This document shows, piece by piece, positions 1,853-18,742 of a stretch of 32,752 nucleotides of DNA. Made by a program: the position numbers and the translations under genes. The notes beneath the pieces are model-generated. The model searched no databases and was not told the origin of the DNA. It was given only the letters and a program-made list of their open reading frames with translations. Origin of the DNA: Candidatus Fermentibacterota bacterium (GTDB lineage Bacteria; Fermentibacterota; Fermentibacteria; Fermentibacterales; JCC-6). Each line of letters starts with the position of its first letter. Within the stretch, counting starts at the first letter, position 1. The stretch is from assembly GCA_003646025.1 (NCBI GenBank), contig QNDR01000016.1, positions 1-32,752 of the forward strand, read 5' to 3'.

Positions 1853-4770
1853 AACTCAAACTGTGTCTGAACAACTCTCTTGTCGTGGTCAATCAGTGTA
1901 AAGCCCTTTTCCCTGAAGAGTCTCAGGCAGCTGTCTACAACATCTTCCCTGAAAAATGTTCCCCTGCCGTCCAGAATAATGTCCAGAGCTGCTTCAACTC
2001 CCATGCTTGCTCTGTATGGTCTTCTTGAAGCAACCGCTTCCACCACGTCAGCTACTGCAATTATGCTTGCTTCAATCATTATTTCGCCGCTCTTAAGACC
2101 TCTGGGATAACCGGATCCATCCTGTCTTTCATGGTGCTGGTGAATAACCTCAGCAATAGGCCATGGGAATTCAACAGTTTTAAGAATATCGTAACCTGCG
2201 CCGGGATGAGTCTTGAGGAAGTCCATCTCGAATTCGTTGAGCGGCCCGGGCTTGTTAAGAATTTCAAGCGGTACATTCAGCTTGCCAAGGTCGTGAAGGG
2301 TACTTGCAATACGAATACAGTCTATTGTGTCTTCGTCCAGACCCATTTCTCTGCCGATTGCACACGCAAGCAGAGATACTCCCTTCTGATGTCCTGATGT
2401 GTAGGGATCTTTCATCTCTACCAGAAGACTCATCGCTGAAACTGTTCCTTCGATGGCCTTCTTGAAACTGTCCAGTGTTTTGCGAAGAGTTTCCTCCTGA
2501 AGTTTGATCTCTGTTATATCTGAAATAATACCGTCGATCATATTTGCCTGGTGATCATCATCCTGAGTTAAAAATCTTGCCGAGATGGATGCCCAGAACT
2601 CAGTTCCGTCTTTTTTTCGCATTGGGGTTTCGTAGTTTTCCACCACACCAGTTGAATTCAGCCTGTTCAGGAATGATGTTCTTGATTTCTGACTGGTAAA
2701 CAAATACTCCGAGCTTCTCTGCAGAAGGTCATCCTCCGAATCGTATCCAAACATGGTTACAAGAGTTGTATTGATGGCAAGAAGGGTTCCATTTTTGGAG
2801 GGATCGCTTCTGAAAATACCAACGGGTACATTGTTTGAAAGAGTTCTGAAATTGTTTTCGCTCTGCCTTAGAGCTTTCTCAGCTTCCGTTCTTGACGTTA
2901 TATCGTCAACAAGTGCCTGGATATAGTTATTCCCACCGATGTTTACCGCATTTAAACTAATTTCAGCCGGAAAATTCTCACCGTTTGTTCTGGTGTGTGT
3001 CCACAGGAAATGCTGGGGTTCTTTTGTTATTGCCATCTGGATTTTCTCCGCGCCTTTTTCAGCCGAGGATATTCCGTCAGGTTGCATTCTCGGAGATAGA
3101 TCGTAGGGTCTCATCCCTATAAGATCTTCTCTTCTGCAACGGAACACTTCTGCAGCTTTTGCGTTGCAGTCTAGAATCATGTCCTCGCACATAAACAGAA
3201 TCGCCATACCGGAATTTTCGAAGAGGGCTTTGTATCTGTCTTTACTTTCGTTGAGAGCTTTGTGGGCAAGATCCTTCTCTTTTTCTCTTTCAATGCTGTC
3301 CAGGGCGAAGGCAATATCGTCGCAGACCTCCTCGAACAGCCCGAGTTCTTCTTTGTCAGGCATTACAGGACCCAGACCAGCTACAGTTAGAACTCCGAAC
3401 ACTGTGTCGCGGTATTCAAGCCGGCACGACATAATGTGTCTAGGTTCAGGTGAAGCTGGCTTCAGCGGGCAATCAGAGCAGATACTGTCAGCAGGGCCGG
3501 ACAACCATGACTTTTCCGAGATCAGAGACTTTTTGATGCAGGGAGGTTGAGCATTCTTAATAAGCTCTTCTTTAAGTGATTCAAGTTCCTCACAGCTCTG
3601 TGCAGCCGACGCGATCATGTGGGAGCCATCTCTGTTGTTCAGTAGAATCCACACATCTTTGTAACCTCTTGCTTCAACAAGCCTTGAACAAACATTATCA
3701 ATAAGTACCTGAATGTCTGTTTCTTTTGTAATCAGCAGGTTGATGCTTCTGATCGCTTTCAGCATCTGTTTCAGGTGTTCTGCACGTTCTTCAGCAACGA
3801 TTCTTTCCTTTATTTCAATTCTGAGGAGACTTACGGTGTTTCTGAGCCTGGTTGTTTTTTCGTCAACTACTTCCTGGAGATGTTCTCTGTATTTTTCAAG
3901 TTCTGCCGTTCGCTCTGCAACCTTTTCGCGCAGGGTTTCCTGAATGCTCAACAGCTCTTTTTCCGCCTGCTTGTTAAGACTGATATCTTTTGCGATAACC
4001 TGGGTTGACGGTTTTCCTCTGTATTCAAACTTTCGTGCGGTAATTTCAATATCAAAAGCAGTTCCATCTTTTCTCAGTATCTGTGTTTCGTAGACCGCCG
4101 GTGTTGTTTTCCCGGTGATTCTATTAGTGTGTATCTGACCCACTTTTTTTTGTTCAGCAGGGGAAATGAGAGTAATAAAATCCCGGCCAATCAATTCATC
4201 CTGACTGTACCCGGAGAGAACGGTGGTTGCCGGATTGGCAAAAACAAGCTTTCCGTCGGAAATTATTACTATTCCAACGGTGGTCATTTCCACCAGTGTT
4301 CGGTAGAGTTCTTCACTTCTGCGCAGTGTTTCGTGCTGATTATCTGATGGTTTCTTTAGCACTGTGACAGCCAGAGAGCCGTTGAAGACGCCGTCTCTGT
4401 ACACTGGAGAGCAACTGGTTATAAAATGTGTATTTTCCGTGTCTTTTTTGAGGGTGTAGCTGAACTCAACAGTTTCACCAGCAGAGTTGCTTTTAAAAGC
4501 CTCTCTTAAAGCTGTGGCTACATTCTGTGGAAAGATATCTTCCGGAGATCTGCCTGAAAGGCTTTCAGGGCTGGCAGAGTCGTAGAATCTCATGCCACCC
4601 TGTGCTGAAACGATTAAGCCTTCCGGGGAAAACAGGAAGACAGTCAAGCCGTTCGAGGCTGGCGAATTTGAAAACAGACCATTCCCGGAGGCATCCGGGT
4701 CGTCAGTTAAGTCTGAATGTACTTTATTCACCGGTGATTTTACCTTCCAATCGGGAACCAAGCCAAACAA
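1849..4770 (-). CDS. multi-PAS/GAF sensor with HD-GYP phosphodiesterase domain
   Basis: 973 residues with no membrane segment. Order: PAS (about 40-138), PAS (150-268), coiled coil (268-335), GAF-like domain (335-495), PAS (510-632), PAS (638-760), HD-GYP (770-935). The HD-GYP signature is intact: HDLGK at 826-830, HH at 879-880, GYP at 887-889, plus the AD pair and RPY downstream. HD-GYP proteins degrade cyclic-di-GMP, so this is probably a soluble sensor that lowers c-di-GMP in response to small-molecule or redox signals. The GAF-like part has five Cys, including CSDC at 431-434. There is no receiver or kinase domain. The start is a TTG with AAGGG upstream at rather short spacing, and a later start is possible. 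Single-gene unit, convergent with slyD. Confidence 0.9.
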   Translation of the reverse strand: MFGLVPDWKVKSPVNKVHSDLTDDPDASGNGLFSNSPASNGLTVFLFSPEGLIVSAQGGMRFYDSASPESLSGRSPEDIFPQNVATALREAFKSNSAGETVEFSYTLKKDTENTHFITSCSPVYRDGVFNGSLAVTVLKKPSDNQHETLRRSEELYRTLVEMTTVGIVIISDGKLVFANPATTVLSGYSQDELIGRDFITLISPAEQKKVGQIHTNRITGKTTPAVYETQILRKDGTAFDIEITARKFEYRGKPSTQVIAKDISLNKQAEKELLSIQETLREKVAERTAELEKYREHLQEVVDEKTTRLRNTVSLLRIEIKERIVAEERAEHLKQMLKAIRSINLLITKETDIQVLIDNVCSRLVEARGYKDVWILLNNRDGSHMIASAAQSCEELESLKEELIKNAQPPCIKKSLISEKSWLSGPADSICSDCPLKPASPEPRHIMSCRLEYRDTVFGVLTVAGLGPVMPDKEELGLFEEVCDDIAFALDSIEREKEKDLAHKALNESKDRYKALFENSGMAILFMCEDMILDCNAKAAEVFRCRREDLIGMRPYDLSPRMQPDGISSAEKGAEKIQMAITKEPQHFLWTHTRTNGENFPAEISLNAVNIGGNNYIQALVDDITSRTEAEKALRQSENNFRTLSNNVPVGIFRSDPSKNGTLLAINTTLVTMFGYDSEDDLLQRSSEYLFTSQKSRTSFLNRLNSTGVVENYETPMRKKDGTEFWASISARFLTQDDDHQANMIDGIISDITEIKLQEETLRKTLDSFKKAIEGTVSAMSLLVEMKDPYTSGHQKGVSLLACAIGREMGLDEDTIDCIRIASTLHDLGKLNVPLEILNKPGPLNEFEMDFLKTHPGAGYDILKTVEFPWPIAEVIHQHHERQDGSGYPRGLKSGEIMIEASIIAVADVVEAVASRRPYRASMGVEAALDIILDGRGTFFREDVVDSCLRLFREKGFTLIDHDKRVVQTQFEF

Positions 4771-4972
4771 GCTACCCTTACACTACTCACATCTACATGC
4801 AGGTCAAGCCCTTCCCTGATGGTTATTTTCATGTAGTACTGTAGATTGCTGTATAAACACAGTTAATGGGTATGGACTGGTTATATGTTTTCCTGGATTG
4901 TTTTAACTGATATATTGCAGACTATGCCTGAATTGATCAGGCCGTCTATGCAGGCCAATTCGAGGAGTTCCT

Positions 4973-5890
4973 GTGAAGGAGAGTGTTGTTACCGTTAAGA
5001 ATCTGGTTAAGCACTACGGTAAGGTGAAAGCCGTTGATGGAATTTCTTTCAGCGTAAAACAGGGTGAAATATTCGGGATTGTGGGTCCTAACGGCGCAGG
5101 AAAAACAACAACAATAGAGTGTATAGCGGCAATGCAGGAGTATGATTCCGGGATTATTGATGTTCTTGGGCTTGATCCTGCAGCGGGATCTCTGTCTATA
5201 AAGCAGAGAATTGGACTGCAGCAGCAGGAGTCGGAGATACCCGACAGACTCCGTCTCAGGGAAGCTATGCTGTTGTTCTCATCTTTATACTCCAGGGTTC
5301 TGGACTGGAGATTGCTTTTGAAGCAGCTTGACCTGTGGGACAAAAAAGATACCTTTTACTCTGCCCTGTCGGGAGGACAGAAAAAGCGGTTCTTCGTGGC
5401 TATGGCTCTTATCGGCGACCCTGAAGTTGTTTTTCTCGATGAGCTGACCTCCGGTCTCGATCCGCAGGCAAGGAGATCTGTATGGGAGCTTGTTAGATAT
5501 CTCAGGAATCAGGGGAGAACAGTTGTTCTCTCCACCCATTACATGGATGAAGCAGAAAAACTGTGTGACAGAGTTGCTGTAATACACAACGGAAAACTTG
5601 CTGCACTTGATACACCCTCTAGCCTGATCTCGCGTTATGGAGGGTATACAAAGGTTTGTTTTGATTTTGACGATAAGTTTGATCAAGGCGTTTTGTCCGG
5701 AGTGAACGGAATCGAATCCAGGGTGATTGAGAACGGACTGTGTACACTTGAGGTAAGCGAGCGCCATGCAATTGTTGAAATAGTGAAAAGCCTTGACGCT
5801 GCAGATCAGGGTCTTGTCTCATTCAGAATTGAGGCTCCGACTCTGGAGGATGTGTTCCTGAATATCACTGGCAGAGAGGTGAGAGATTGA
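4973..5890 (+). CDS. ABC-2 type exporter, ATP-binding protein
   Basis: 305 residues from a GTG start with GAGGAG five bases upstream. All nucleotide-binding motifs are present: Walker A GPNGAGKTT (38-46), the LSGGQKKR signature (about 132-139), Walker B VVFLDE followed by the LTSGLDP D-loop, and the switch His in STHYMDEAE. The C-terminal 80 residues are the extension common in DrrA/NodI/CcmA-type exporters. It powers the permease encoded next, with which it shares a stop/start overlap. Exporters of this class move drugs, lipids or polysaccharides; the sequence does not show which. The upstream 200-base gap, divergent from the sensor gene, contains TATATT at 4911-4916 but no convincing -35. 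Confidence 0.92.
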   Translation: MKESVVTVKNLVKHYGKVKAVDGISFSVKQGEIFGIVGPNGAGKTTTIECIAAMQEYDSGIIDVLGLDPAAGSLSIKQRIGLQQQESEIPDRLRLREAMLLFSSLYSRVLDWRLLLKQLDLWDKKDTFYSALSGGQKKRFFVAMALIGDPEVVFLDELTSGLDPQARRSVWELVRYLRNQGRTVVLSTHYMDEAEKLCDRVAVIHNGKLAALDTPSSLISRYGGYTKVCFDFDDKFDQGVLSGVNGIESRVIENGLCTLEVSERHAIVEIVKSLDAADQGLVSFRIEAPTLEDVFLNITGREVRD

Positions 5891-7312: not shown

Positions 7313-8851
7313 ATGTCTGTTGTTCTGACCGGTAAAGACCTTACTGTTGAGACTGTTGTTGCAGTGGCGCGCAATGGTGAAAAGGTAGAGCTGCACCCCG
7401 ATGCTATTGAGAGAATAAATACCTGTCGTAAAATGGTTGAGCGCAAGATTGCCGCAGGCGAAACCATGTATGGAATCAACACTGGAATTGGAGAGTTCTC
7501 CGAAACAAAGCTCAAGGATGACGAAGTTCTGGCTTTTCAGAAATACCTTATCTACAACCATTCTGCAGGTATTGGGAAACCGGCGCCTGTGGAGCATGTA
7601 CGCGGAGCAATGCTTGGCCGCGCGAATGTTCACAGCAATGGTCACAGTGCCGTTCGTATAGAAATGACACAGATGCTTGTTTCAATGCTCAACGCAGGGG
7701 TGACTCCTGTTGTCTGCGAGAAGGGATCTGTTGGGGCAAGCGGAGATCTGGCTCCTATGAGCATGATAGCACTGGTTGTTATGGGCGAAGGTGAAGCCTG
7801 GTTTGAGGGCAGCAGGTACCCCGGGAAAGAGGCACTGGCTCTTGGTGGGTTGAAACCGCTTAAACTGCAGGCCCGCGATGGCCTGGCTCTTATCAACGGC
7901 TCAAACCTGCTTACAGCTATTTCAGCTCTAAACCTTTACGATATGAACAGATGGCTAAAACAGGCAGAGATAACAGCAGCCATGAGTCTTGAGGCTCTGT
8001 ACGCTAACCTGACTCCTTACGAGGACAAGGTTCACACTGTAAGAGGTTTTGCAGGTTCGCTCCGAAGCGCAAGGGCAATAAGAAAGTGTATTGCTGGAAG
8101 CGATCTCTCCACGGGAAAGACACCGCAGAAAGTTCAGGATGCCTATTCCATGCGCTCTACTCCACAGGTTATAGGAGCTGCCCATGACGCAATTGCCCAC
8201 GCCAGGAAACAGGTGGAAACAGAGTTGAACGGAGTTGGAGACAACCCTCTGTTCTTCCCTGAAGAAGATCTGGTACTTACCGGAGCCAACTTCCAGGGTA
8301 CTCCTGTTTCCCTCCCCATGGAAATGGCCGGTACTTCTATAACTATGGTTTCTGTTCTCAGTGAGAGAAGACTGAACCGTCTGTTGAACCCGGCGCTTTC
8401 AGTGGGGCTTCCTCCTTTTCTTGCTGAAAAGCCCGGTCTTTACAGCGGCCACATGTTGAGCCAGTACACGGCAGGCATGCTGGTTACCGAGCAGCGAATA
8501 CTCAGTGCTCCTGCCGCGGTAGCCTCTATTCCAGCTGCTGCGGATCAGGAAGATTTTGTGAGTATGGGTATGAATACATCTCTTAAAAACTGCCAGATCC
8601 TGGAAAACGCATACGGTATCCTCGGTATCGAGATGATTGCCGCCGCACAGGCACTGGATTTCCGGAGTCATGAATTCGGCAAAGGTGTTCAGACTGCGTA
8701 CAAAGTAATCAGAAAGTATGTTGAACATCTCGGCGAAGACAGGCCTCTGTATCCTGATCACAACAAAATGAGTGAGGTCGTACAATCTGGAGAGATACTT
8801 GAAGCGGTTGAACAAGCTGTCGGATCCCTTGAAGGTGGTGAACAGCGATGA
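7313..8851 (+). CDS. hutH: MIO-type aromatic amino acid ammonia-lyase, probably histidine ammonia-lyase
   Basis: 512 residues, normal length for the family, from an ATG with a strong GGAGG site. The cofactor-forming triad Ala-Ser-Gly is at 142-144 within GSVGASGDLAPMS. Other family residues are present: the Tyr of MYGINTGIG, the His of NHSAGIG, Asn in LINGSN, Tyr and Arg of QDAYSMRSTPQV, Phe of GANFQGTPV and Glu of QEDF. The enzyme removes ammonia without hydrolysis, making urocanate if the substrate is histidine. The usual HAL motifs S/HQEDHVSMG and INGTQ are changed to DQEDFVSMG and INGSN, so another aromatic amino acid cannot be excluded. No other hut gene (urocanase, imidazolonepropionase, formiminotransferase) is in the window. 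Its stop overlaps the start of the secreted peptidase gene (ATGA). Confidence 0.87.
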   Translation: MSVVLTGKDLTVETVVAVARNGEKVELHPDAIERINTCRKMVERKIAAGETMYGINTGIGEFSETKLKDDEVLAFQKYLIYNHSAGIGKPAPVEHVRGAMLGRANVHSNGHSAVRIEMTQMLVSMLNAGVTPVVCEKGSVGASGDLAPMSMIALVVMGEGEAWFEGSRYPGKEALALGGLKPLKLQARDGLALINGSNLLTAISALNLYDMNRWLKQAEITAAMSLEALYANLTPYEDKVHTVRGFAGSLRSARAIRKCIAGSDLSTGKTPQKVQDAYSMRSTPQVIGAAHDAIAHARKQVETELNGVGDNPLFFPEEDLVLTGANFQGTPVSLPMEMAGTSITMVSVLSERRLNRLLNPALSVGLPPFLAEKPGLYSGHMLSQYTAGMLVTEQRILSAPAAVASIPAAADQEDFVSMGMNTSLKNCQILENAYGILGIEMIAAAQALDFRSHEFGKGVQTAYKVIRKYVEHLGEDRPLYPDHNKMSEVVQSGEILEAVEQAVGSLEGGEQR

Positions 8852-11358
8852 AACTTTCAGCGGTTTGCCTGATCCTTGCCGTATCTACCGTGATGGCGGT
8901 ACCCGAGGGTATCCCTCTTCAGTACATGGACAGCAGAGGAAGGCAGCCATCGTCTACCAGAGTTTCCTGCGAGGCAGGACGGGGAGCCTACAGTATGACA
9001 CCTGTTTCAGCACCGGTTGGCTCTTCCACCGATGGCGATAAGGTGGTGCTTCTTGTAGACCAGGCTGTGTTTTCGGGAATTGCAGCTTCTCTTTCAGTGT
9101 TTCAAAGCGATCTTGAGGCAGAGGGCTTTACCGTTTTGACATGGCAGATAAGCGGCGGTACAGCGACAGACATAAGGACAGATCTTCAGACAGAGTATAC
9201 CGCCGGAGATCTGGCAGGAGCTATTGCCATTGGAGACATACCCACCGGATGGATCGAGAATGGTTATGGTGAGTACCCCATAGATATGTACCTTATGGAC
9301 ATGAACGGCACATGGAGCGATCCGGATGCAGATGGTCTGTTTAATTCCTACAGCAGCGGTGCTCCGGAGATATGGCTGGGAAGGCTCACTCCAACCCACC
9401 TTACTTTCGGGTCTTCAGTGGGTCTTCTGAACTCTTACTTTGCAAGGAATCATGCCTATAGAAATGGAACTCTGACACTTCCGGACAGGGCACTTGCATA
9501 CGAGGAGGCTTTTACCGGTCTTACAGGTGCGCTGGATAATCTTTACGATGATGTTACCCGAAAGACCGACCCGGTTTCAACCAACGCTGATGACTTCAAA
9601 TCAGAGCTGCTTTACGGATACCAGTGGGTCCACCTGATCTCCCATTCAAGCCCGTGGGGAAGCAGTTTTCACACAGGTGCTCCATCGTCAGGCGGTGGAA
9701 CTCTGGACAATTTCGAGGTTCCTCCTCTTGATCCCCATGCTTTCTTCTATGTATGCAACTGCTGCACAAACGGCAGGTGGACAGAGGTGGACAACCTTGC
9801 CAACAGTTACATCTGGACAGATTCCTACGGTCTTGCAGCTCTGGCCCAGACAAAAGTTGATTACACCAACTACTTTACTGAATACTACAGTCAGCTGTCA
9901 TCAGGATCGAACCTGGGTGATGCTTACAGAGTGTGGCTGGGTGCAAACATGGGTAACGAGGACGGTGCTGTTCTGTTTGGAGATCCCACTCTGAAACCCC
10001 GGGTTGGAAGTGCCTGCCGTTCCGGGTTGTCTGGTGAATCCCCATACCCTGCAGTTGCCGGGTGGCTTGATTACCCGCTTACAGACGGTCTGCATTCACA
10101 GGGAAGAGTAGACACCTACCATGACCCGTTTTCAGACATGATTTTTGCTGTATCGGGAACATCCGATCCTGTGAGAGCAAACATACTGGCTACAGTTACA
10201 GATGGAGATTCCTGGGCTGCTCCGATGATTGTCTGCCAGCATGAATACTGGGACTGGCATCCAACTGTCGGCGGAGACGGTATGGGAAAAGTGTGGACAG
10301 CATGGCATTCCATGCGCGACAACCACGAAGGTTACGATATCTATGTGTCCCTGTGGAATGGATCAGGGTGGGGCGCGGCTCAGACACTCACAACTGGAGA
10401 TCCTTTTGATGTAGAGCCCTCTCTGTCCGGTGGAAACGGTCACACATGGCTTGTGTGGCAGAAGTGGGACGGAGGAGATCCTGATATTGTGGGGCGGATG
10501 TGGACAGGCTCTCAGTGGACAGTTGAGGAAACCATTGCCGGGTCTGACAACGCTGAACAGTATCCTGATGTTGCCTGGAACGGATCCGGGTACGGAGTGG
10601 TGTACCACCGTAAATCAGCGTCAGGAGGGTGGGTGATCGGTTTCAGAGATGCTCCGGACAGCGGAGCATTTGGTGCGGAAACCGTGATATCCTCTTCTTC
10701 CGGCGAGAACAGGTATGCATGTATTGCAGGAACTTCCAGCGGGTTTGCTGCTGTCTGGCAGAGTCAGAACGGCAGTATTGTGTACTCGCGACTGACAGGA
10801 AGTACCTGGAGCAGCCCTGAGGTGGTTTCCGGAAGTGATTACGGAGCACGCCCCGGTGTCGCCGTTACTTCAACGGGTTCTGTGATTGTTTCGTGGACTG
10901 CGGCAATGAATACCATCCGCTACAACTTGTGGGACGGCTCTTCATGGAGCGGGGTACTCACCGCAGCCTCAGCAAGCGCAATTGACGACGGTAAAATGAC
11001 CTGCAACTCAGCTGGCGATCTGTGGCTGGTGTATGGAGCCAGAGGAGATGACTACCAGTGGGATCTCCGGGCATCTACACCTGATCCTTCCGGTATTGAA
11101 GAAACGGAAGAGTCCGTAGCATTGTCTGTTGCGAACACAGGTTCCAATCCAGCTGGCTCATCAGCATTGTTTTCTGTCTCTGCCGCCGGAGAAGTCCTTC
11201 TTACCGTGCACGATATGAGTGGAAGAGTTGTGCACAGTGATACAGTGATGCCCGGAGAATATATCTGGAACTGCAGCAGTTCCCCTGCGGGTATTTACAT
11301 TGTAAGGGTTTCCAGAGGTATGGCTGCGCAAGACTTCAAACTTGTTGTTATCAGATAA
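8848..11358 (+). CDS. secreted gingipain-like (C25) cysteine peptidase with propeller-like repeats and T9SS-like tail
   Basis: 836 residues with a signal peptide (1-17). Residues about 50-385 resemble the clan CD peptidase C25 fold: a KVVLLVDQAVF strand, then candidate catalytic His (H262 or H266, in HLISHSSPW), then candidate catalytic Cys (C303, C305 or C306, in YVCNCC). Residues about 400-745 contain repeated W-rich blades (such as GSGWGAAQTL, GSQWTVEETI, GSTWSSPEVV, GSSWSGVLTA), suggesting a sialidase or lectin-like beta-propeller. The last 85 residues (VHDMSGRVVHSD, AGIYIVRVSRG) are a T9SS-type sorting domain. Probably an extracellular protease anchored at the surface. It overlaps the ammonia-lyase stop by ATGA, so the two are translationally coupled. 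A strong terminator follows. Confidence 0.85.
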   Translation: MKLSAVCLILAVSTVMAVPEGIPLQYMDSRGRQPSSTRVSCEAGRGAYSMTPVSAPVGSSTDGDKVVLLVDQAVFSGIAASLSVFQSDLEAEGFTVLTWQISGGTATDIRTDLQTEYTAGDLAGAIAIGDIPTGWIENGYGEYPIDMYLMDMNGTWSDPDADGLFNSYSSGAPEIWLGRLTPTHLTFGSSVGLLNSYFARNHAYRNGTLTLPDRALAYEEAFTGLTGALDNLYDDVTRKTDPVSTNADDFKSELLYGYQWVHLISHSSPWGSSFHTGAPSSGGGTLDNFEVPPLDPHAFFYVCNCCTNGRWTEVDNLANSYIWTDSYGLAALAQTKVDYTNYFTEYYSQLSSGSNLGDAYRVWLGANMGNEDGAVLFGDPTLKPRVGSACRSGLSGESPYPAVAGWLDYPLTDGLHSQGRVDTYHDPFSDMIFAVSGTSDPVRANILATVTDGDSWAAPMIVCQHEYWDWHPTVGGDGMGKVWTAWHSMRDNHEGYDIYVSLWNGSGWGAAQTLTTGDPFDVEPSLSGGNGHTWLVWQKWDGGDPDIVGRMWTGSQWTVEETIAGSDNAEQYPDVAWNGSGYGVVYHRKSASGGWVIGFRDAPDSGAFGAETVISSSSGENRYACIAGTSSGFAAVWQSQNGSIVYSRLTGSTWSSPEVVSGSDYGARPGVAVTSTGSVIVSWTAAMNTIRYNLWDGSSWSGVLTAASASAIDDGKMTCNSAGDLWLVYGARGDDYQWDLRASTPDPSGIEETEESVALSVANTGSNPAGSSALFSVSAAGEVLLTVHDMSGRVVHSDTVMPGEYIWNCSSSPAGIYIVRVSRGMAAQDFKLVVIR

Positions 11359-11367
11359 ACTGCTGAA

Positions 11368-11400
11368 AGGAAAATGGGAGACGCTGTCTCCCATTTTCCT
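11368..11400. terminator. bidirectional terminator between convergent operons
   Basis: AGGAAAATGGGAGAC (11368-11382) pairs perfectly over 15 bp with 11386-11400 around a 3-base loop. The stem holds A/T tracts on both sides, so it can act in both directions. It lies 10 bases after the peptidase stop, and its right arm overlaps the first two bases of the stop codon of the minus-strand antiporter gene. Confidence 0.8.
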
Positions 11401-12619
11401 AATCCGGGATTTCTCCGGCATTTTTCAACGCAATTTTAGCTGTTATCGGGCCTAAAATTTCAAACAGGATGCATGTGGCAGTAATTGTTGTTACAACTGA
11501 CGCTGCAATGGCGTGAGCCTGCGCAGAGTCGATACTGGAAAACTCCTGTGAAACAAGAAGAGAAAGCCCGATGGCCACACCGGCCTGTGAAAGAAGCCCG
11601 AAACCGATGTTGTTTCTTATTGTTTTGCTTGCTCCGCCCAGGTAGGCACCCAGCCATGATCCTCCGATTTTTCCCGCTGCTCTTCCTACCATGTAGGCAA
11701 CGCCGATGAGACCAAGCGCAGGCAGAGAAGCGAAGTTGAGATGTGCCCCGGCAAGGAAGAAGAACAGTATGAACAGAAGAGGCATAAGTGATCGGAGCTG
11801 CTCGTTCACACTGACCACAGTGCTTTGTTTTGTTGTGTTTGCAAGCACAAATCCAATGCCCATGTTTACAAGTATAAGAGACAGATGGAACATCTCCGCC
11901 AGACCTGCTCCCATGAGAATAAAGCCGAATGTAAGGGCGGGAATATTGTTTTTTGATAGCAGTTTAGGTATCAGGTATGAGTAGAGAAACCCAAGAACAG
12001 AACCCAGAACCAGGCTGAGCACAATTTCCACTGAGGGTTGTATCAGTCCGGAGGCAAGGCTTCCCTGTGAGATTCCACTGCTGGAGAGCAGTATCTGTTT
12101 GGCTATGGCTGCGGTAAAGCCGAACAGCAGAATCGCCACTCCGTCGTCGAACCCTGCCACAGCATACAGCGAAGAGGACAGTTTGCCCTTTGCCTTGTAT
12201 TCCCTTATCACAGCAACAGTGCCGGCAGGGGCTGTGGCTGGAGCGAGAGACCCGAAGATCAGTGCTGTAACAATATCTCCTGAAACTAGATAAACGAGTA
12301 CTGCAACAAGAATTAAGGCAGAAACAGATTCAAATACAATTATCAGCCCTATGGATTTACCGAGAGATTTCAGCGTGGACATCTTGAGTTCATTGCCGAT
12401 ACTGAAGGCCACAAACCCCAGAGCTATATCTGTTATAAAGGTGAGTTCCCGCAGGTGCTCATGGTGGAACAGCTTGAGTACTGAAACACCCATTACAGTG
12501 CCAAGCAGCATGTAGCCAATTATCGATGGAAGACCAACTTTTTTGACCAGTCTGCCAGAGAACAGGCCCAGCGTAACGGCTATTCCTATAAGAGCCAGAA
12601 GGGTGAATTCGAAGCTCAT
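11399..12619 (-). CDS. CPA2-type cation:proton antiporter (second of a tandem pair)
   Basis: 406 residues with about 12 hydrophobic segments, an NhaP/KefB-type Na+(K+)/H+ exchanger core. Recognisable parts are SGRLVKKVGLPSIIGYMLLG near the N-terminus, ALGFVAFSIGNEL, the GSLAPATAPAGTVAVI helix, and AGFDDGVAILLFG with the Asp pair expected at the ion-binding site. There is no C-terminal TrkA-N/RCK domain, which many KefB proteins carry. It starts with ATG overlapping the stop of its paralogue by four bases (ATGA), so the two are coupled. Two similar subunits in tandem suggest a heterodimer or duplication with divergence. Ion specificity cannot be read from the sequence. Confidence 0.88.
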   Translation of the reverse strand: MSFEFTLLALIGIAVTLGLFSGRLVKKVGLPSIIGYMLLGTVMGVSVLKLFHHEHLRELTFITDIALGFVAFSIGNELKMSTLKSLGKSIGLIIVFESVSALILVAVLVYLVSGDIVTALIFGSLAPATAPAGTVAVIREYKAKGKLSSSLYAVAGFDDGVAILLFGFTAAIAKQILLSSSGISQGSLASGLIQPSVEIVLSLVLGSVLGFLYSYLIPKLLSKNNIPALTFGFILMGAGLAEMFHLSLILVNMGIGFVLANTTKQSTVVSVNEQLRSLMPLLFILFFFLAGAHLNFASLPALGLIGVAYMVGRAAGKIGGSWLGAYLGGASKTIRNNIGFGLLSQAGVAIGLSLLVSQEFSSIDSAQAHAIAASVVTTITATCILFEILGPITAKIALKNAGEIPD

Positions 12620-13830
12620 TTCTCTCTACCGATCTCACCTGCTCTGGTCAGGGCGTACTTGGCTCCTATGGGCCCGACTATTTCGAAAATAATGCAGGTT
12701 GCGGTAATTGTCGTAATTACCGTTGATGCAATACTAACAGATTCAGGTGTACCCAGCTCCGTGAATTCATTCAAAACAAGCATTGACAGACCAATGGCAA
12801 CTCCGGCCTGTGAAAGTATCCCAAAACCAAGATACTTTCTGATTTTGGGTTCAGAAGCACCTGCAACCGCACCCAGCCATGCCCCTCCCATGAGTCCTGC
12901 AGTTCTTGACAGCATGTATATAACGCCGAGGATACCGAGCGATGGAAGAGATGTAATATCTAAATGGGCACCGGCAAGAAAGAAGAACGGAATAAATAGA
13001 AATGAGATCCATGAACGTAATTGGCCAAGGAGTTTGTTTACCATAATTGACGGTGTTGTGTTTGTAAGTACAAATCCCAGCATCATTGAGGTGAGAATCA
13101 AGGAAAGATGAAGCCACTGTGAAATACCTATGGATACGGCAACAAATCCGAATGTAAGAGACGGGATATCCGTAAGAGGTTTCAGCCTTCGGCTGAGTAC
13201 CGTGTATATGTAGCCCAGAATTCCGCCTGCTGCCAGACTCAGCAGAATCTCCCCGGCAGGATGCAGTATTCCCTGAAGCAGAGACATAGAGTTTGCAGGG
13301 TCAAGCATGTTTCGCGCTGCAGCATTCGCAAATCCGAAAATTACTATAGCCAGCCCGTCATCAAATCCTACAACAGCGTACAGAGCTTTGGTAAGGGTTC
13401 CCTTTGCTCCATATTCCTGAATCACGGCTACAGTTCCCGCTGGAGCACTTGCTGGAGCCAGAGATCCGAAGATAAGAGCCATAGGCATGTTCTTTGTAAG
13501 AAGCCATACGCCAGCTGTAACCACAGCGAATGCAGCAAAAGACTCTGCTATAATAATGTATATGATGCCTTTGCCAAGCTTTTTCAGACCACGGATGTTG
13601 AGTTCACTGCCAATTGTGAAGGCAACAAACCCGAGGGCAACATCAGTAAGGAAGCCGAGTGAGTGCAAGTTTTCGCCAGACAGTACGCCAAGAACCGAGC
13701 CTCCCAGAACAACACCGAGAATCATGTATCCCACAAGCGAAGGAAGATTGACTTTTTTAACCAGCCTGCCCATGTACAGGGACAGAACGGTTGCTATACC
13801 CACAAGGGTGATCAGTGGTAATGATGACAT
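12616..13830 (-). CDS. CPA2-type cation:proton antiporter (first of a tandem pair)
   Basis: 404 residues from the ATG at 13830. A further upstream ATG at 13863 would add 11 residues and overlap the preceding gene. The shorter form is preferred because it aligns from residue 1 with the downstream paralogue and starts 7 bases after the preceding stop. About 12 membrane segments and the same landmarks: GRLVKKVNLPSLVGYMILG, ALGFVAFTIGSEL, GSLAPASAPAGTVAVI and VGFDDGLAIVIFG. No cytoplasmic RCK domain. Expected to exchange Na+ or K+ for protons across the inner membrane, probably under control of the EIIA/PII-like protein encoded just upstream. Confidence 0.88.
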   Translation of the reverse strand: MSSLPLITLVGIATVLSLYMGRLVKKVNLPSLVGYMILGVVLGGSVLGVLSGENLHSLGFLTDVALGFVAFTIGSELNIRGLKKLGKGIIYIIIAESFAAFAVVTAGVWLLTKNMPMALIFGSLAPASAPAGTVAVIQEYGAKGTLTKALYAVVGFDDGLAIVIFGFANAAARNMLDPANSMSLLQGILHPAGEILLSLAAGGILGYIYTVLSRRLKPLTDIPSLTFGFVAVSIGISQWLHLSLILTSMMLGFVLTNTTPSIMVNKLLGQLRSWISFLFIPFFFLAGAHLDITSLPSLGILGVIYMLSRTAGLMGGAWLGAVAGASEPKIRKYLGFGILSQAGVAIGLSMLVLNEFTELGTPESVSIASTVITTITATCIIFEIVGPIGAKYALTRAGEIGREK

Positions 13831-13837
13831 GATAAAC

Positions 13838-14662
13838 CTAAAATTCCAGGGAGCCAAGAGCATGGTGCAGATCTGTAACGGTAACCATTACATCTGTCTG
13901 TTTCCGGAAATCCCCGCAGACATATTCGATGTTTCTCAAAGTCTGGTTAAGCAGAGATTCCTTCACAACCGCCATGATAATTCTGTTGAAAGTATTGAGG
14001 TCGTTGTTCCATAACCCGGCAAAAACGGGCATGTTGGACATGTATTCAGTTGATTCATGCGCTTCCAGAACCATTGCTCCAGTCAAGTCGTCGGAGGCGA
14101 ACACCTGCAGTACATCGTTGAACAGGTCTTCATCGCGAATGAACACATGAAGCATGCGCATTGCTGGTCCCAGCTGCTTTGTTTCTGTAGAGGAGGTACT
14201 GCTCTGCAGAATACCTTCCAGAAAGTCGTACAGTTCCTGTGGGGAGACAGCTTTTCTTATTGTGCTTCTGGTTTCAGGATTCCTAAGAAGCCTTGCCATA
14301 CCTGAGAGAACCTTCAGGTGTTCTTTGGGGTTGTCTTCCGGGCCGATAACAAAGGGGAATATGTTTACTTTTTCGTTGTCTATAGAGTTGAAATCAATAC
14401 CTTTTCTAGTGGTGATAATACCAACGGCAAAAGAATCTATGCCCTTTATTCTGCAGTGGGGGATAGCCACGCCGCTGCCAAGCCCTGTTGATGCCAGCTC
14501 TTCTCTCTCAAGCAGAAGTTTTTCCACTTCAGACGGGGCTATTCCTTTCATCGCAGGATGTTTGCAGGCTATCACTGCAATCTCAGTGATCAGCTGTTTT
14601 TTGTTTTTCAGATCAACGTTGACTTCGATTGTCTCCTTAGTAAGAATATCAGTGAGATTCAT
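13838..14662 (-). CDS. PTS EIIA (fructose/nitrogen-type) domain fused to a PII-like domain
   Basis: 274 residues. Residues 1-155 are a PTS EIIA type 2 domain related to FruA/MtlA/PtsN: the TGLGSGVAIPHCR motif holds the phospho-acceptor His69, followed by the KEHLKVLSGMARLL helix. Residues about 167-274 start with a MRMLHVFIRDEDLFNDVLQVF strand-helix and continue in a beta-alpha-beta-beta-alpha-beta pattern that looks like a PII/ferredoxin-like regulator; this second assignment is inferred from pattern only. No EIIB or EIIC domain is present, so the role is regulatory rather than sugar uptake. EIIA-Ntr (PtsN) is known to control potassium transport in E. coli. The gene precedes the antiporter pair by 7 bases and follows the HAD gene by 17. 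Confidence 0.83.
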   Translation of the reverse strand: MNLTDILTKETIEVNVDLKNKKQLITEIAVIACKHPAMKGIAPSEVEKLLLEREELASTGLGSGVAIPHCRIKGIDSFAVGIITTRKGIDFNSIDNEKVNIFPFVIGPEDNPKEHLKVLSGMARLLRNPETRSTIRKAVSPQELYDFLEGILQSSTSSTETKQLGPAMRMLHVFIRDEDLFNDVLQVFASDDLTGAMVLEAHESTEYMSNMPVFAGLWNNDLNTFNRIIMAVVKESLLNQTLRNIEYVCGDFRKQTDVMVTVTDLHHALGSLEF

Positions 14663-14679
14663 CCGGTCCTCCAGTATCG

Positions 14680-15426
14680 TTATCCCTCTGTTAAGAGAGC
14701 TGGGTCGATTCTGCCCAGTCCTGCCAGCGGCAGCACTTCGGTAAGATCGGCTACGGTTATAACAAGCTCCGGTTCGACAAACTCAATCTGCTCGGCCTGC
14801 CATGTAAGTGGACGCTGGACATATAGTGCGTTAACACCACATCCAATGGCCGGATTGATGTCTGACCTGGGGCTGTTTCCAATCATACAGGCCTCGCCAG
14901 GTGTTGTTCCTGTAGAGGCAAGCAACTGTTTCATCGTCTGTTCAGTTTTTACGGGAACCACTGTGCAGTTCTCGAAAAACTTTGAAATTCCCGATCGCTT
15001 GAACTTGTCTGTCTGATGATCTTTTTCCCCCATAGTATAAACGATCATCCGTTTTCCTGAAGCATGCATTCTTGTGATGGAACTGAGAACACCCGGCAAG
15101 AGAACAAGTGGATGGTGAAGAAGTGAATACGCTATATCATCTAGCGCTCTAAGCATATAAGTTGTTGGATTGTTGACCTTGTCCTCAATCATCGAACGCA
15201 GAACAGACATATAGGGGCGTGCTCCGTATCCGGTAACAGAGAGTCTCTCCAGGTCTCTGGTGTGTATTTCAGAGATGATCTCTGAAGGCTCGAAACCCAG
15301 ACTGTGCATAAGCGCGGCAAAGTCGTTTTCAGCACGTCTGAAGTACAGGCCACTTTCCCAGAGAGTGTCGTCTGCATCAAAAATCCAGAGTTTTGTGTTC
15401 TCAAGTCTGTTATTGAATTTCTTCAT
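14680..15426 (-). CDS. HAD-superfamily hydrolase
   Basis: 248 residues from the ATG at 15426. An open frame continues to 15501, but the added 25 residues look non-conserved. HAD motif I is WIFDADDTLWE (Asp17 nucleophile, Asp19). The cap helices follow, then motif II near IVYTMG, the conserved Lys in VPVKTEQTMK, and the acidic motif GNSPRSDI near the C-terminus. Likely a phosphatase of a small phosphorylated metabolite; substrate unknown. The chosen start lacks a Shine-Dalgarno site and has TATATT six bases upstream, so the message may be leaderless or the start may lie further upstream. First gene of the minus-strand operon with EIIA-PII and the antiporters. Confidence 0.8.
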   Translation of the reverse strand: MKKFNNRLENTKLWIFDADDTLWESGLYFRRAENDFAALMHSLGFEPSEIISEIHTRDLERLSVTGYGARPYMSVLRSMIEDKVNNPTTYMLRALDDIAYSLLHHPLVLLPGVLSSITRMHASGKRMIVYTMGEKDHQTDKFKRSGISKFFENCTVVPVKTEQTMKQLLASTGTTPGEACMIGNSPRSDINPAIGCGVNALYVQRPLTWQAEQIEFVEPELVITVADLTEVLPLAGLGRIDPALLTEG

Positions 15427-15501
15427 AGGACAAATATAACACATCCAGCTGTTGACGGAACGGGCCTTGTTGTTGAGGTGTGAGTAAACACAAATATACA
15501 T

Positions 15502-15923: not shown

Positions 15924-17129
15924 ATGAACAAGATTGTTCTGTCTGTTCTGACGCTATTTGCTATTTTGCTTGTCACTGGATGCGGAGAGGAACTGCCGCA
16001 GCCGGTGGTAGACAATCAGGTGGACGAGGTTGCACCGGTAGAAGAATCCGCACTGAACAACATACCCATTGAGGACGTAGTTCTTGATGCAGACGCTGTT
16101 CAGTTGAAGATCGGGTTTGTGAAGCAGGACCACCACTCTGCTGTTTTTGTAGCGGCGCTTAGAAGTGAAATGATGCATGACCTTTTCCCGGTTTACCTGA
16201 TTCCACTGGGCGAGAACTTCTACGCTCTGATAAAGGACAACCAGCAGGTAGCCGAGATTGAATTCATACAGTCACAGGGCGCAATTAACGTACCCAACAA
16301 CATGAGCGCTGGCCTTTTTGAGATGGGCTTTGGCGGTGTTGTGCCTTTTGTCGCGAGTATCGATCAGGGAAATCCCATCAAGATAGTCAGCCCTCTGCAT
16401 GAGAGGGGAGACATGCTGGTTGTTCGTGCAGACAACGAAACCGTTACAGACTGGGACAGCTTTCTCGCATGGGTTAACACTTCAGAGGAACCGGTTACAG
16501 TCGGATTTAAGAGCCCCAAAGCTGTGGCACTTATAATATTCGAAACAGCTCTGTCTGAAGCTGAAGTTCCATTTGCATTGTCCGGCGGCGATGTTGAGGG
16601 AGTTAAAGTAGTTCTTTACAACGCCCAGGGGCAGCCTAACCTCAATCCAGCACTTCAGGAAGGCTTGATAGACGCTTACGTGTCCAATAACCCCGCGTGC
16701 GCCATGGCAGAGTATAACGGTATAGGCAAGTCCGTTGCCGCTCTCTCAATGCTTCCCCCGGGAGATTTCCACGATCATCCATGTTGTGCAATTGCCGCGA
16801 CACAAGAGGTCATAGCGGCAAAGCCGCACGAGGTCGCGGCCGCGCTTGAGCTTTTTGCGTATGCGACAGAGTTTATAAACGAGAATCCTGAAGAGGCGGC
16901 GGCAGCAGCTTCCGAGTGGATAGGCACTCCTCTGGAAGTGGAGCTGGCGTCCATGGCTACCAGTCTCTATGATGTTCATATCACCGAGGCATGGACTTCC
17001 AACATGAGCACAATCATGGATCACATGAGAGGGCTGAATGTTTTCAGCGGACCTCTTATGGATGCGAATGAAGTTTCCGAGATAGACATAATTTCGGATT
17101 TCAGCCTGTTGCCGGAAGAATACAGGTAG
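15924..17129 (+). CDS. ABC importer substrate-binding lipoprotein (NitT/TauT type)
   Basis: 401 residues from an ATG with a very good GGAGGGG site. The signal peptide ends in the lipobox LVTGC, so the mature protein is probably a lipoprotein. An acidic linker (about 22-55) is followed by a type II periplasmic binding fold of the SsuA/TauA/NMT1 group: LKIGFVKQDHHSAVFVAAL, then NNMSAGLFEMGFGGVVPFVA and VGFKSPKAVALIIFETAL. An unusual motif, PGDFHDHPCCAIAA, lies at about 276-289. Ligands of this family include nitrate, sulfonates, taurine, thiamine precursors and cyanate; the sequence does not settle which. First gene of a three-gene importer operon. Confidence 0.87.
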   Translation: MNKIVLSVLTLFAILLVTGCGEELPQPVVDNQVDEVAPVEESALNNIPIEDVVLDADAVQLKIGFVKQDHHSAVFVAALRSEMMHDLFPVYLIPLGENFYALIKDNQQVAEIEFIQSQGAINVPNNMSAGLFEMGFGGVVPFVASIDQGNPIKIVSPLHERGDMLVVRADNETVTDWDSFLAWVNTSEEPVTVGFKSPKAVALIIFETALSEAEVPFALSGGDVEGVKVVLYNAQGQPNLNPALQEGLIDAYVSNNPACAMAEYNGIGKSVAALSMLPPGDFHDHPCCAIAATQEVIAAKPHEVAAALELFAYATEFINENPEEAAAAASEWIGTPLEVELASMATSLYDVHITEAWTSNMSTIMDHMRGLNVFSGPLMDANEVSEIDIISDFSLLPEEYR

Positions 17130-17137
17130 GGGATTCT

Positions 17138-18004
17138 ATGGACGGCAGGGTTCCGTCTGAAAGAAACACAAAGGCTTTCTGGCAGAAGATGAAGGATCTT
17201 CTGCCAGGGCTTATTATTCCAGTTCTGATTCTGGCAGCATGGAGTTATTACGGAAACGGCAGTTTTCTGCCGTCGCCTTCGGCTGTTTTTAACGTACTTT
17301 TACATCCTGCAGAGGACATTCTGAGTTGCGGGTCTCTGCTCTGGAACATAGGTGTGAGTCTTGTTCGAGTTCTGCTTGGCCTTTTTATCGCTATTGTTGT
17401 GGGAACACCTTTTGGTTTCATGATGGGTGCGAACAACCGCTTCAGAAAATTTACTTCGGTTGTTACCGAGCTTGCCAGACCTCTTTCGCCAATCGCTCTG
17501 CTGCCGCTTTCAATAATCGTGTTCAAAGACACTTCGTTTACGGAAGTTCTGGGATTGAACAGTCTCAAATACACAAGGCACATACTCAATGAGCTTCAGA
17601 TCGGGATGATCTTTATACTGGCCTGGGGAGGTGTATTCCCAATTATTTTGGAAACAATGCACGGGGTACGGGGAGTAAGAAAAGTCTATGTGGAGGCTGC
17701 CCGCGTTCTTGGAGCCAGCAGAACTTTTATCTTCAGGCACGTTCTTCTCCCGGCTTCACTTCCGGACGTTTTTACCGGTTACAGAATGGCTGTGGGCAGA
17801 TGCTGGATGGTGATAATCGCTGCGGAAATGCTTCCCGGTACCAATTCTGGTATAGGTTATCTGCTGCGGTATTCTTACCAGCTTTCAAGGCTGGATATCA
17901 TGCTGGCATGCATTTTCATTATTGCCGTTATAGGTTTTGTCTTTTCCCGGGGGCTGGAGTATGCCGGAGACCGGTGGTTGCTCTTGAGAGCAAGGGAGCG
18001 GTAG
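17138..18004 (+). CDS. ABC importer permease (NitT/TauT type)
   Basis: 288 residues from an ATG with an AGGGG site. A charged N-terminus precedes about six membrane segments. The EAA loop that docks the ATPase is clear: YVEAARVLGASRTFIFRHVLLPASLPDVFTG, with EAA and the conserved Gly. The pattern matches the SsuC/TauC/NrtB group. Residues about 130-150 (FKDTSFTEVLGLNSLKY) form a small insertion I do not recognise. It begins 8 bases after the binding protein and is followed directly by the ATPase. Confidence 0.88.
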   Translation: MDGRVPSERNTKAFWQKMKDLLPGLIIPVLILAAWSYYGNGSFLPSPSAVFNVLLHPAEDILSCGSLLWNIGVSLVRVLLGLFIAIVVGTPFGFMMGANNRFRKFTSVVTELARPLSPIALLPLSIIVFKDTSFTEVLGLNSLKYTRHILNELQIGMIFILAWGGVFPIILETMHGVRGVRKVYVEAARVLGASRTFIFRHVLLPASLPDVFTGYRMAVGRCWMVIIAAEMLPGTNSGIGYLLRYSYQLSRLDIMLACIFIIAVIGFVFSRGLEYAGDRWLLLRARER

Positions 18005-18742
18005 ATGATATCTTTCAGCTTTCTGGGAATTGAGAAATCGTACAGCGATCCGTCAGGCAAAAATCTGCAGGTACTTGGTCCTGTAGATCTGACTGTGGAA
18101 AGTGGCCAGTTTCTGTGTCTGCTGGGTCCCACCGGATGCGGGAAAACCACTTTGCTTCGTATCCTGTCCCGCCTTGAATCGGCAGACAGCGGTAAAATAT
18201 CCATGGGAAGCGGTAATCTGGGCTATGTTTTTCAGCAGGGTGCTCTGTTTCCATGGATGACAGTGGAATCCAATGTGATGTTTCCCCTGAAAGCAAAAGG
18301 TGTAAAGTCGGGATTGTGCAGATCCCGGGCCGGGGAAATGCTGAGAAATGTAGGGCTCTACGAATTCCGCAGGAGTTTTCCACACGAGTTATCCGGAGGA
18401 ATGCAGCAGAGAACTGCGCTGGCAAGAGGGCTGGTTACCGAGCCGGATATTCTTCTGCTCGATGAACCTTTCGCCTCCCTGGACACCAGAACAGGTATTC
18501 ATCTGCAGGAAATGCTGAGAAAACTCTGCCGGAGTCTGTCTACAACTGTGGTTTTTGTTACACACAATATTGAAGAGGCTGTGTATCTCGCGGACAGAAT
18601 AGCAGTGATGGGGCACAGACCCGGAAGAATCGTGCGTGACGAAACCCTCAGCCTGAAGTGGCCCAGAGACCGTCTTTCAAGTGACTTCACCGGCGTATTG
18701 CTGTCGTTCAGGCAGACATTTGAGGAACTTGTAGATCAGTAA
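18005..18742 (+). CDS. ABC importer ATP-binding protein (NitT/TauT type)
   Basis: 245 residues whose ATG directly follows the stop of the permease. Walker A is GPTGCGKTT (41-49), the Q-loop is VFQQGALFPW (about 74-83), the signature is LSGGMQQR (128-135), Walker B is ILLLDE (148-153) and the switch His is in VTHNIEEAVYL. This is the SsuB/TauB/NrtD pattern. It energises import by the two genes upstream. Convergent with a possible small gene; no terminator is evident between them. Confidence 0.9.
   Translation: MISFSFLGIEKSYSDPSGKNLQVLGPVDLTVESGQFLCLLGPTGCGKTTLLRILSRLESADSGKISMGSGNLGYVFQQGALFPWMTVESNVMFPLKAKGVKSGLCRSRAGEMLRNVGLYEFRRSFPHELSGGMQQRTALARGLVTEPDILLLDEPFASLDTRTGIHLQEMLRKLCRSLSTTVVFVTHNIEEAVYLADRIAVMGHRPGRIVRDETLSLKWPRDRLSSDFTGVLLSFRQTFEELVDQ

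Follow-up and report, generated by a model that had tools for sequence, protein, structure and literature searches.

An EIIA-PII fusion protein encoded with two cation/proton antiporters in a Candidatus Fermentibacterota bacterium

What regulates a pair of cation/proton antiporters that carry no regulatory domain of their own? Most of the detailed knowledge of how a phosphorelay controls cation/proton exchange comes from E. coli. The question is raised by a four-gene locus at positions 11399-15426 of contig QNDR01000016.1 (GenBank assembly GCA_003646025.1) from a Candidatus Fermentibacterota bacterium, of which a stretch of 32,752 nucleotides, hereafter referred to as the window, was analysed. 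In this locus, two antiporters, AP1 and AP2, are encoded directly after a protein of 274 amino acids that joins an EIIA domain of the phosphotransferase system (PTS) to a C-terminal domain (CTD) predicted to have a PII fold. The reading that we favour, and regard as reasonably likely, is that this protein, a cytoplasmic one with two domains, regulates the adjoining antiporters post-translationally, Na+ (or K+)/H+ exchange being changed by the phosphorylation of EIIA and by a ligand or the conformation of the PII part. Since the pairing of EIIA with a PII-like protein recurs beside two unrelated exchanger families in many phyla, the pair probably acts as a portable ion-exchange switch.

Results

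The four open reading frames are all on the minus strand and form a tight operon, in which the fusion gene precedes the antiporters by 7 bases, as had been described in an earlier note on this DNA. The features are, in the order of transcription:

14680-15426, minus strand: HAD-superfamily phosphatase (subclass IA-like), 248 amino acids
13838-14662, minus strand: EIIA-CTD fusion gene, 274 amino acids
14213-14662, minus strand: EIIA domain (EIIA-Ntr/fructose type), residues 1-150 of the fusion protein, phospho-acceptor H69
13841-14170, minus strand: PII-type CTD, residues ~165-274 of the fusion protein
12616-13830, minus strand: AP1, CPA-type cation/proton antiporter lacking an RCK domain, 404 amino acids, DD ion-site motif
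11399-12619, minus strand: AP2, CPA-type cation/proton antiporter lacking an RCK domain, 406 amino acids, DD ion-site motif

The HAD gene is separated from the fusion gene by 17 bases, and AP1 and AP2 overlap by 4 bases. The HAD frame has a second in-frame ATG at 15501, and AP1 has an upstream ATG at 13863, inside the fusion gene. No Rfam element was found in the window, and promoter and terminator patterns are about as numerous in it as in shuffled sequence.

The CTD, of about 110 residues, has no significant match in Pfam or NCBIfam, so that its assignment needed structure prediction and intermediate sequences, both of which support PII. A search of the PDB with its sequence profile gave no match (best E-value 0.37). 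The AlphaFold models, made of the whole protein (31 homologues, mean predicted local distance difference test (pLDDT) score of 81) and of the CTD alone, comprise a β-α-β unit, a short helix with a loop (the T-loop) and another β-α-β unit. When the CTD model was compared with the PDB using Foldseek, the best 50 matches listed all belonged to the PII superfamily (PstA, GlnB/GlnK, GlnZ and DUF3240), and a non-PII fold was rejected. Furthermore, free-standing homologues of the CTD from other phyla, of about 115 residues, exceed the cut-off of Pfam P-II (PF00543) at five loci (L112, L115, L116, L121 and L122). On these models, the CTD has the PII fold, as the earlier note had suspected of the C-terminal 105 residues. 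Two other candidate identities were discarded: Imm49, whose Pfam match (0.005) is under its cut-off, and the band-3 cytoplasmic domain, which was matched by the whole protein in Foldseek through a broad alignment dominated by the EIIA half and uninformative for the CTD.

When compared with the sequence of E. coli GlnB, the CTD in the window lacks the canonical ATP/2-oxoglutarate residues (the TGxxGDGK motif, K90, R101, R103, Q39 and K58) and Y51 of the T-loop. These losses extend to almost the whole CTD family: K90 is absent from 38 of 38 aligned sequences, and R101 is replaced by glycine in 36 of the 38. The T-loop is shortened and contains a P-x-F-A motif (P212-F214-A215) that is nearly invariant in the family, and the free-standing relatives retain the G-x-G / FTxPV strand of PII proteins. 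Judged by its residues, the CTD is PII-like in fold and is not a canonical ATP/2-oxoglutarate sensor. The nucleotide or metabolite sensing proposed earlier thus finds no support in its classical PII form, the residues for it being gone family-wide; as for the other part of that proposal, we still infer from the analysis that the EIIA-PII protein regulates the antiporters.

The N-terminal half of the protein matches PTS_EIIA_2 (PF00359) over residues 6-149 with an E-value of 3.3e-30 and 105 bits (cut-off 27). Its phospho-acceptor histidine, H69, is present within GVAIPHCR, where the earlier note had placed it, and is invariant in 31 aligned homologues. The PDB sequence matches of this domain are PtsN/IIA-Ntr proteins (1e-18), and Foldseek also finds PtsN structures. 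The score for the PtsN equivalog TIGR01419 is 87 bits, under the cut-off of 139, so the domain is PtsN-like but is not filed as PtsN.

The genome of the window encodes the relay that such a domain would need. Both EI and HPr were found, together with HPr kinase, in an HprK-HPr-EI operon on contig C4, and there are three further EIIA genes; an amino-acid permease is joined to one of these and a putative helix-turn-helix domain (weak match) to another. EIIB and EIIC partners are absent from the locus, as had been claimed, and a search of the genome for PTS_EIIC (PF02378) found nothing, a result that covers neither EIIB nor other EIIC families. HPr was found in 39 of the 42 genomes of the phylum and in 28 of the 31 genomes of other phyla that carry the CTD. 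The HprK-HPr-EI operon, the extra EIIA genes, the widespread HPr and the lack of a PTS_EIIC match fit a PTS that is used for regulation. The permease-EIIA fusion (L037, 5298-7172, on contig C1 of genome G000) has its EIIA domain at the C-terminus; long EIIA frames that resemble it, of 613-663 amino acids, are encoded by many other genomes.

Both antiporters match Na_H_Exchanger (PF00999), AP1 over residues 15-382 (2.6e-31) and AP2 over residues 19-396 (5.8e-35), the two scores being 121 and 109 bits against a cut-off of 26.2. Because this transport domain covers nearly the whole of each protein, there is no room for an RCK domain, and neither AP1 nor AP2 has a second Pfam match, be it the C-terminal RCK (TrkA-N) domain of the KefB/KefC type or another. 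The description of the pair as coupled antiporters lacking RCK is therefore correct. An acidic DD pair at the ion-binding site in the core helix, typical of electrogenic exchangers as known from NapA/NhaA-type antiporters, is found in AP1, AP2 and 50 of 63 aligned relatives. In the tree, four species of another genus (g2) contribute a single antiporter each, which AP1 joins with a support of 100/99; AP2 joins the single antiporter from other species of the window's own genus. As each groups with single antiporters of different genera, the pair is old; a recent tandem duplication is ruled out, and AP1 and AP2 are older paralogues that were retained differently in the two genera. Five genomes, that of the window among them, have two antiporters. 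At locus L043 (3-1196) the AP2 orthologue is broken into two frames of 163 and 218 amino acids, by assembly error or decay.

The HAD protein matches Pfam Hydrolase (2.2e-8) and, weakly, TIGR02253 of NCBIfam. Its catalytic motifs are all intact (DADDTL, the T of VYTMG, the K of VPVKT, and GNSPRSD) and are conserved among orthologues. At locus L072 (genome G007, 3735-5405), the HAD, EIIA and PII-type domains form a single frame of 557 amino acids, which suggests that the HAD protein acts together with the regulator. The HAD gene was not found in the other-phylum loci examined.

Within the small phylum of the window, the CTD is present in 37 of the 42 genomes, mostly in two clusters. Cluster A consists of HAD, EIIA-PII and one or two antiporters, with the genes of an NMT1-like ABC transporter running divergently from it. 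In cluster B, an antiporter is followed by EIIA-PII and a gene of about 480 codons, which is SHMT-like (PF00464) in the one member scanned (L057, 3336-4766).

To go beyond the phylum, we used a sample of 290 genomes across the domain, in which the CTD occurs in 31 genomes outside the phylum, in 32 copies. These 31 genomes were searched genome-wide with the EIIA, Na_H_Exchanger and MNHE families, and the numbers expected were derived from gene counts and genome size. EIIA lies within 4 kb of 24 of the 32 copies (0.43 expected), a CPA-type antiporter within 4 kb of 18 (0.24 expected), and MrpE within this distance of two. Compared with expectation, these counts rule out a chance neighbourhood, and the linkage of EIIA, PII-like protein and antiporter, which could have been a peculiarity of one genome, is repeated across phyla much more often than chance would give. 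Some of these genomes have the EIIA and PII parts fused; in others they are separate genes lying side by side. When named genomes were scanned with the free-standing family, 80 of 209 loci were kept; EIIA is present at 62 of these, Mrp subunits at 36 and CPA-type antiporters at 13.

Gene order differs between the phyla. In Spirochaetota and Aerophobota, the genes for the PII-like protein and EIIA are followed by MrpE, F, G, B, C and D. In Gemmatimonadota, the order is often EIIA, PII-like protein, CPA-type antiporter. In Calditrichota/KSB1, what comes after EIIA-PII is the gene of a Ser/Thr protein kinase that has a PEGA domain and/or a histidyl-tRNA-synthetase-like gene (L177, 2627-5452; L132, 5348-6619), which means that antiporters are not the sole partners of EIIA-PII. 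Antiporter and EIIA are joined in a single open frame in four genomes. Clusters that correspond to each version, with the regulator first or the antiporter first, exist in other phyla. The tree of the antiporters and that of EIIA-PII agree on two large clades and on the joining of the other-phylum clusters, with the exception of L109, which has no firm place in the EIIA-PII tree. Three observations on single loci may be added. Mrp-type loci with leading PII-like and EIIA genes are exemplified by L173 (5813-9893), with similar loci among L131-L206; L205, of the Mrp type, belongs to the cultured Breznakiella homolactica. At L125 (5514-6488), two antiporters and a PII-like gene are accompanied by a CBS-CBS-EIIA fusion, which adds another sensory domain to the module. 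The placing of L113 beside an RND pump was wrong, as the neighbouring gene is that of carbamoyl-phosphate synthase.

Discussion

We propose the following mechanism for the protein in the window. Its EIIA domain would accept phosphate at H69 from the EI-HPr relay, the genes of which are in the genome, and the phosphorylation state of H69 would therefore report phosphoenolpyruvate (PEP)/pyruvate status. The PII-type domain would form a PII-like, probably trimeric body, of which the short T-loop that bears the P-x-F-A motif could make contact with the antiporter. Phosphorylation, and possibly also a non-classical ligand, would alter this binding and so open or close Na+ (or K+)/H+ exchange. The antiporters having no RCK domain of their own, the fusion protein would supply regulation in trans, and with neither RCK nor CorC on the antiporters, the docking would fall to its PII part.

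Several findings speak against this mechanism. Every canonical PII ligand residue is lost, and the PII-type half may for this reason sense nothing. The symmetry of a PII trimer is mismatched with that of an antiporter dimer. The model of the CTD alone, made with 38 homologues, has only moderate confidence (pLDDT 79). In the window's own phylum, L072 and L073 have HAD-EIIA-PII with no adjoining antiporter, and among the 80 free-standing loci, 14 have neither EIIA nor an antiporter nearby and 18 have EIIA only.

The first of these points leads to a sub-version of our reading, tentative and clearly less favoured, in which the PII-type domain is ligand-free and serves as a trimerising adaptor that docks EIIA on the antiporter; the retention of the short T-loop motif amid the loss of the ligand residues agrees with it, but the conserved G-x-G / FTxPV strand of free-standing members, some of which have no EIIA nearby, suggests an activity of their own. 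The protein could instead be a transcriptional or general regulatory PTS output, in the way that PtsN acts on kinases or KdpD, co-located with the antiporters through a shared salt/pH stress regulon and making no contact with them. PtsN acts on several targets that are not transporters, such as the KdpDE pathway; L114 joins L072 and L073 in having EIIA-PII with no antiporter near, and the kinase and histidyl-tRNA-synthetase-like neighbours in Calditrichota/KSB1 are of the same tenor. However, the linkage to two non-homologous antiporter families in many phyla and the single-frame antiporter-EIIA proteins point to direct contact, and the EIIA-PII protein has no DNA-binding domain, which makes this explanation rather unlikely in our judgement. 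Quite improbable is a CTD that is a receptor of cyclic di-AMP (c-di-AMP) like PstA/DarA, so that the operon joins c-di-AMP signalling and EIIA phosphorylation for ion exchange: PstA from S. aureus, in complex with c-di-AMP (4wk1), heads the Foldseek matches, diadenylate cyclase is encoded in the window's genome and in 38 of the 42 genomes tested, and K+ transporters of Firmicutes are controlled by c-di-AMP, but PstA is barely ahead of ordinary PII chains (E-value of 2.3e-5 against 2.7e-5), the cyclase is a common enzyme in general (11 of 14 control genomes), and genomes G106, G245 and G030 have the CTD with no match to the cyclase.

Regulation of the antiporters by the fusion protein, as we propose it, has relatives among known systems. 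In E. coli, PtsN in its unphosphorylated form attaches to the K+/H+ antiporter YcgO, probably at the CorC domain of the latter, and inhibits it (PMC11808508), which for the EIIA half is a direct precedent. Both cases have an EIIA-Ntr-type protein, a cation/proton antiporter and an EI-HPr-type relay, and in E. coli the phosphorylation state sets the interaction. However, YcgO has its own RCK and CorC domains and PtsN has no PII part, whereas the window's antiporters have neither domain and their co-encoded putative regulator has a predicted PII fold. The SbtB-SbtA and GlnK-AmtB pairs share with our system a PII fold, a gene near that of a membrane transporter and the T-loop region as the likely contact; they differ in lacking EIIA, in belonging to other transporter families and in binding adenyl nucleotides, GlnK through residues that are absent from the CTD. 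PstA/DarA, the best fold match of the CTD, is likewise PII-like with a shortened T-loop, but has no EIIA partner. PII-NG proteins are encoded beside CzcABC efflux pumps (Sant'Anna et al. 2009, as cited in PMC7726332) and so are also PII-like proteins encoded with a proton-driven cation exporter; CzcABC, however, is an RND pump for divalent metals, and that citing account reports no EIIA partner. Finally, LacS-type transporters have a fused EIIA domain (PMC10710835), which is a regulatory domain of a secondary transporter but is of the EIIA-Glc type, on a sugar transporter, with no PII domain.

Antiporters controlled by PtsN, transporters controlled by PII-like proteins, and PII-NG encoded next to CzcABC are thus kinds already known. 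No description of EIIA paired with a PII-like protein at antiporters of the CPA or Mrp type was found in the open-licence full-text literature, subscription journals being outside the scope of the search. The chances seem to us evenly balanced that EIIA and a divergent, non-nucleotide PII-like protein make up a widespread portable module that controls at least two unrelated antiporter families, CPA-type and Mrp, in many phyla and links the homeostasis of ions and pH to PEP status and to a second signal, its halves having merged into one protein in the lineage of the window. If so, a single module would explain how energy status is coupled to Na+, K+ and pH in many bacteria, including Spirochaetota and Gemmatimonadota, and there would be a new PII subfamily with an EIIA partner. 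The control of the Mrp antiporter is poorly understood, and it would gain a candidate regulator. The fusion in the window makes the proposed EIIA-PII partnership directly testable using one purified protein.

Neighbouring genes

Convergent with the antiporters, at 8848-11358 of the window, lies the gene of an 836-amino-acid protein with a weak match to Por_Secre_tail (type IX sorting), which comes after a histidine ammonia-lyase-like gene. On the other side of the operon, at 15924-18742 and on the opposite strand, a divergent set of genes encodes an NMT1-like substrate-binding protein, a permease and an ATPase. In the majority of the phylum loci read, these genes retain their position next to the HAD-EIIA-PII cluster, and the binding protein is kept even where there is no antiporter.

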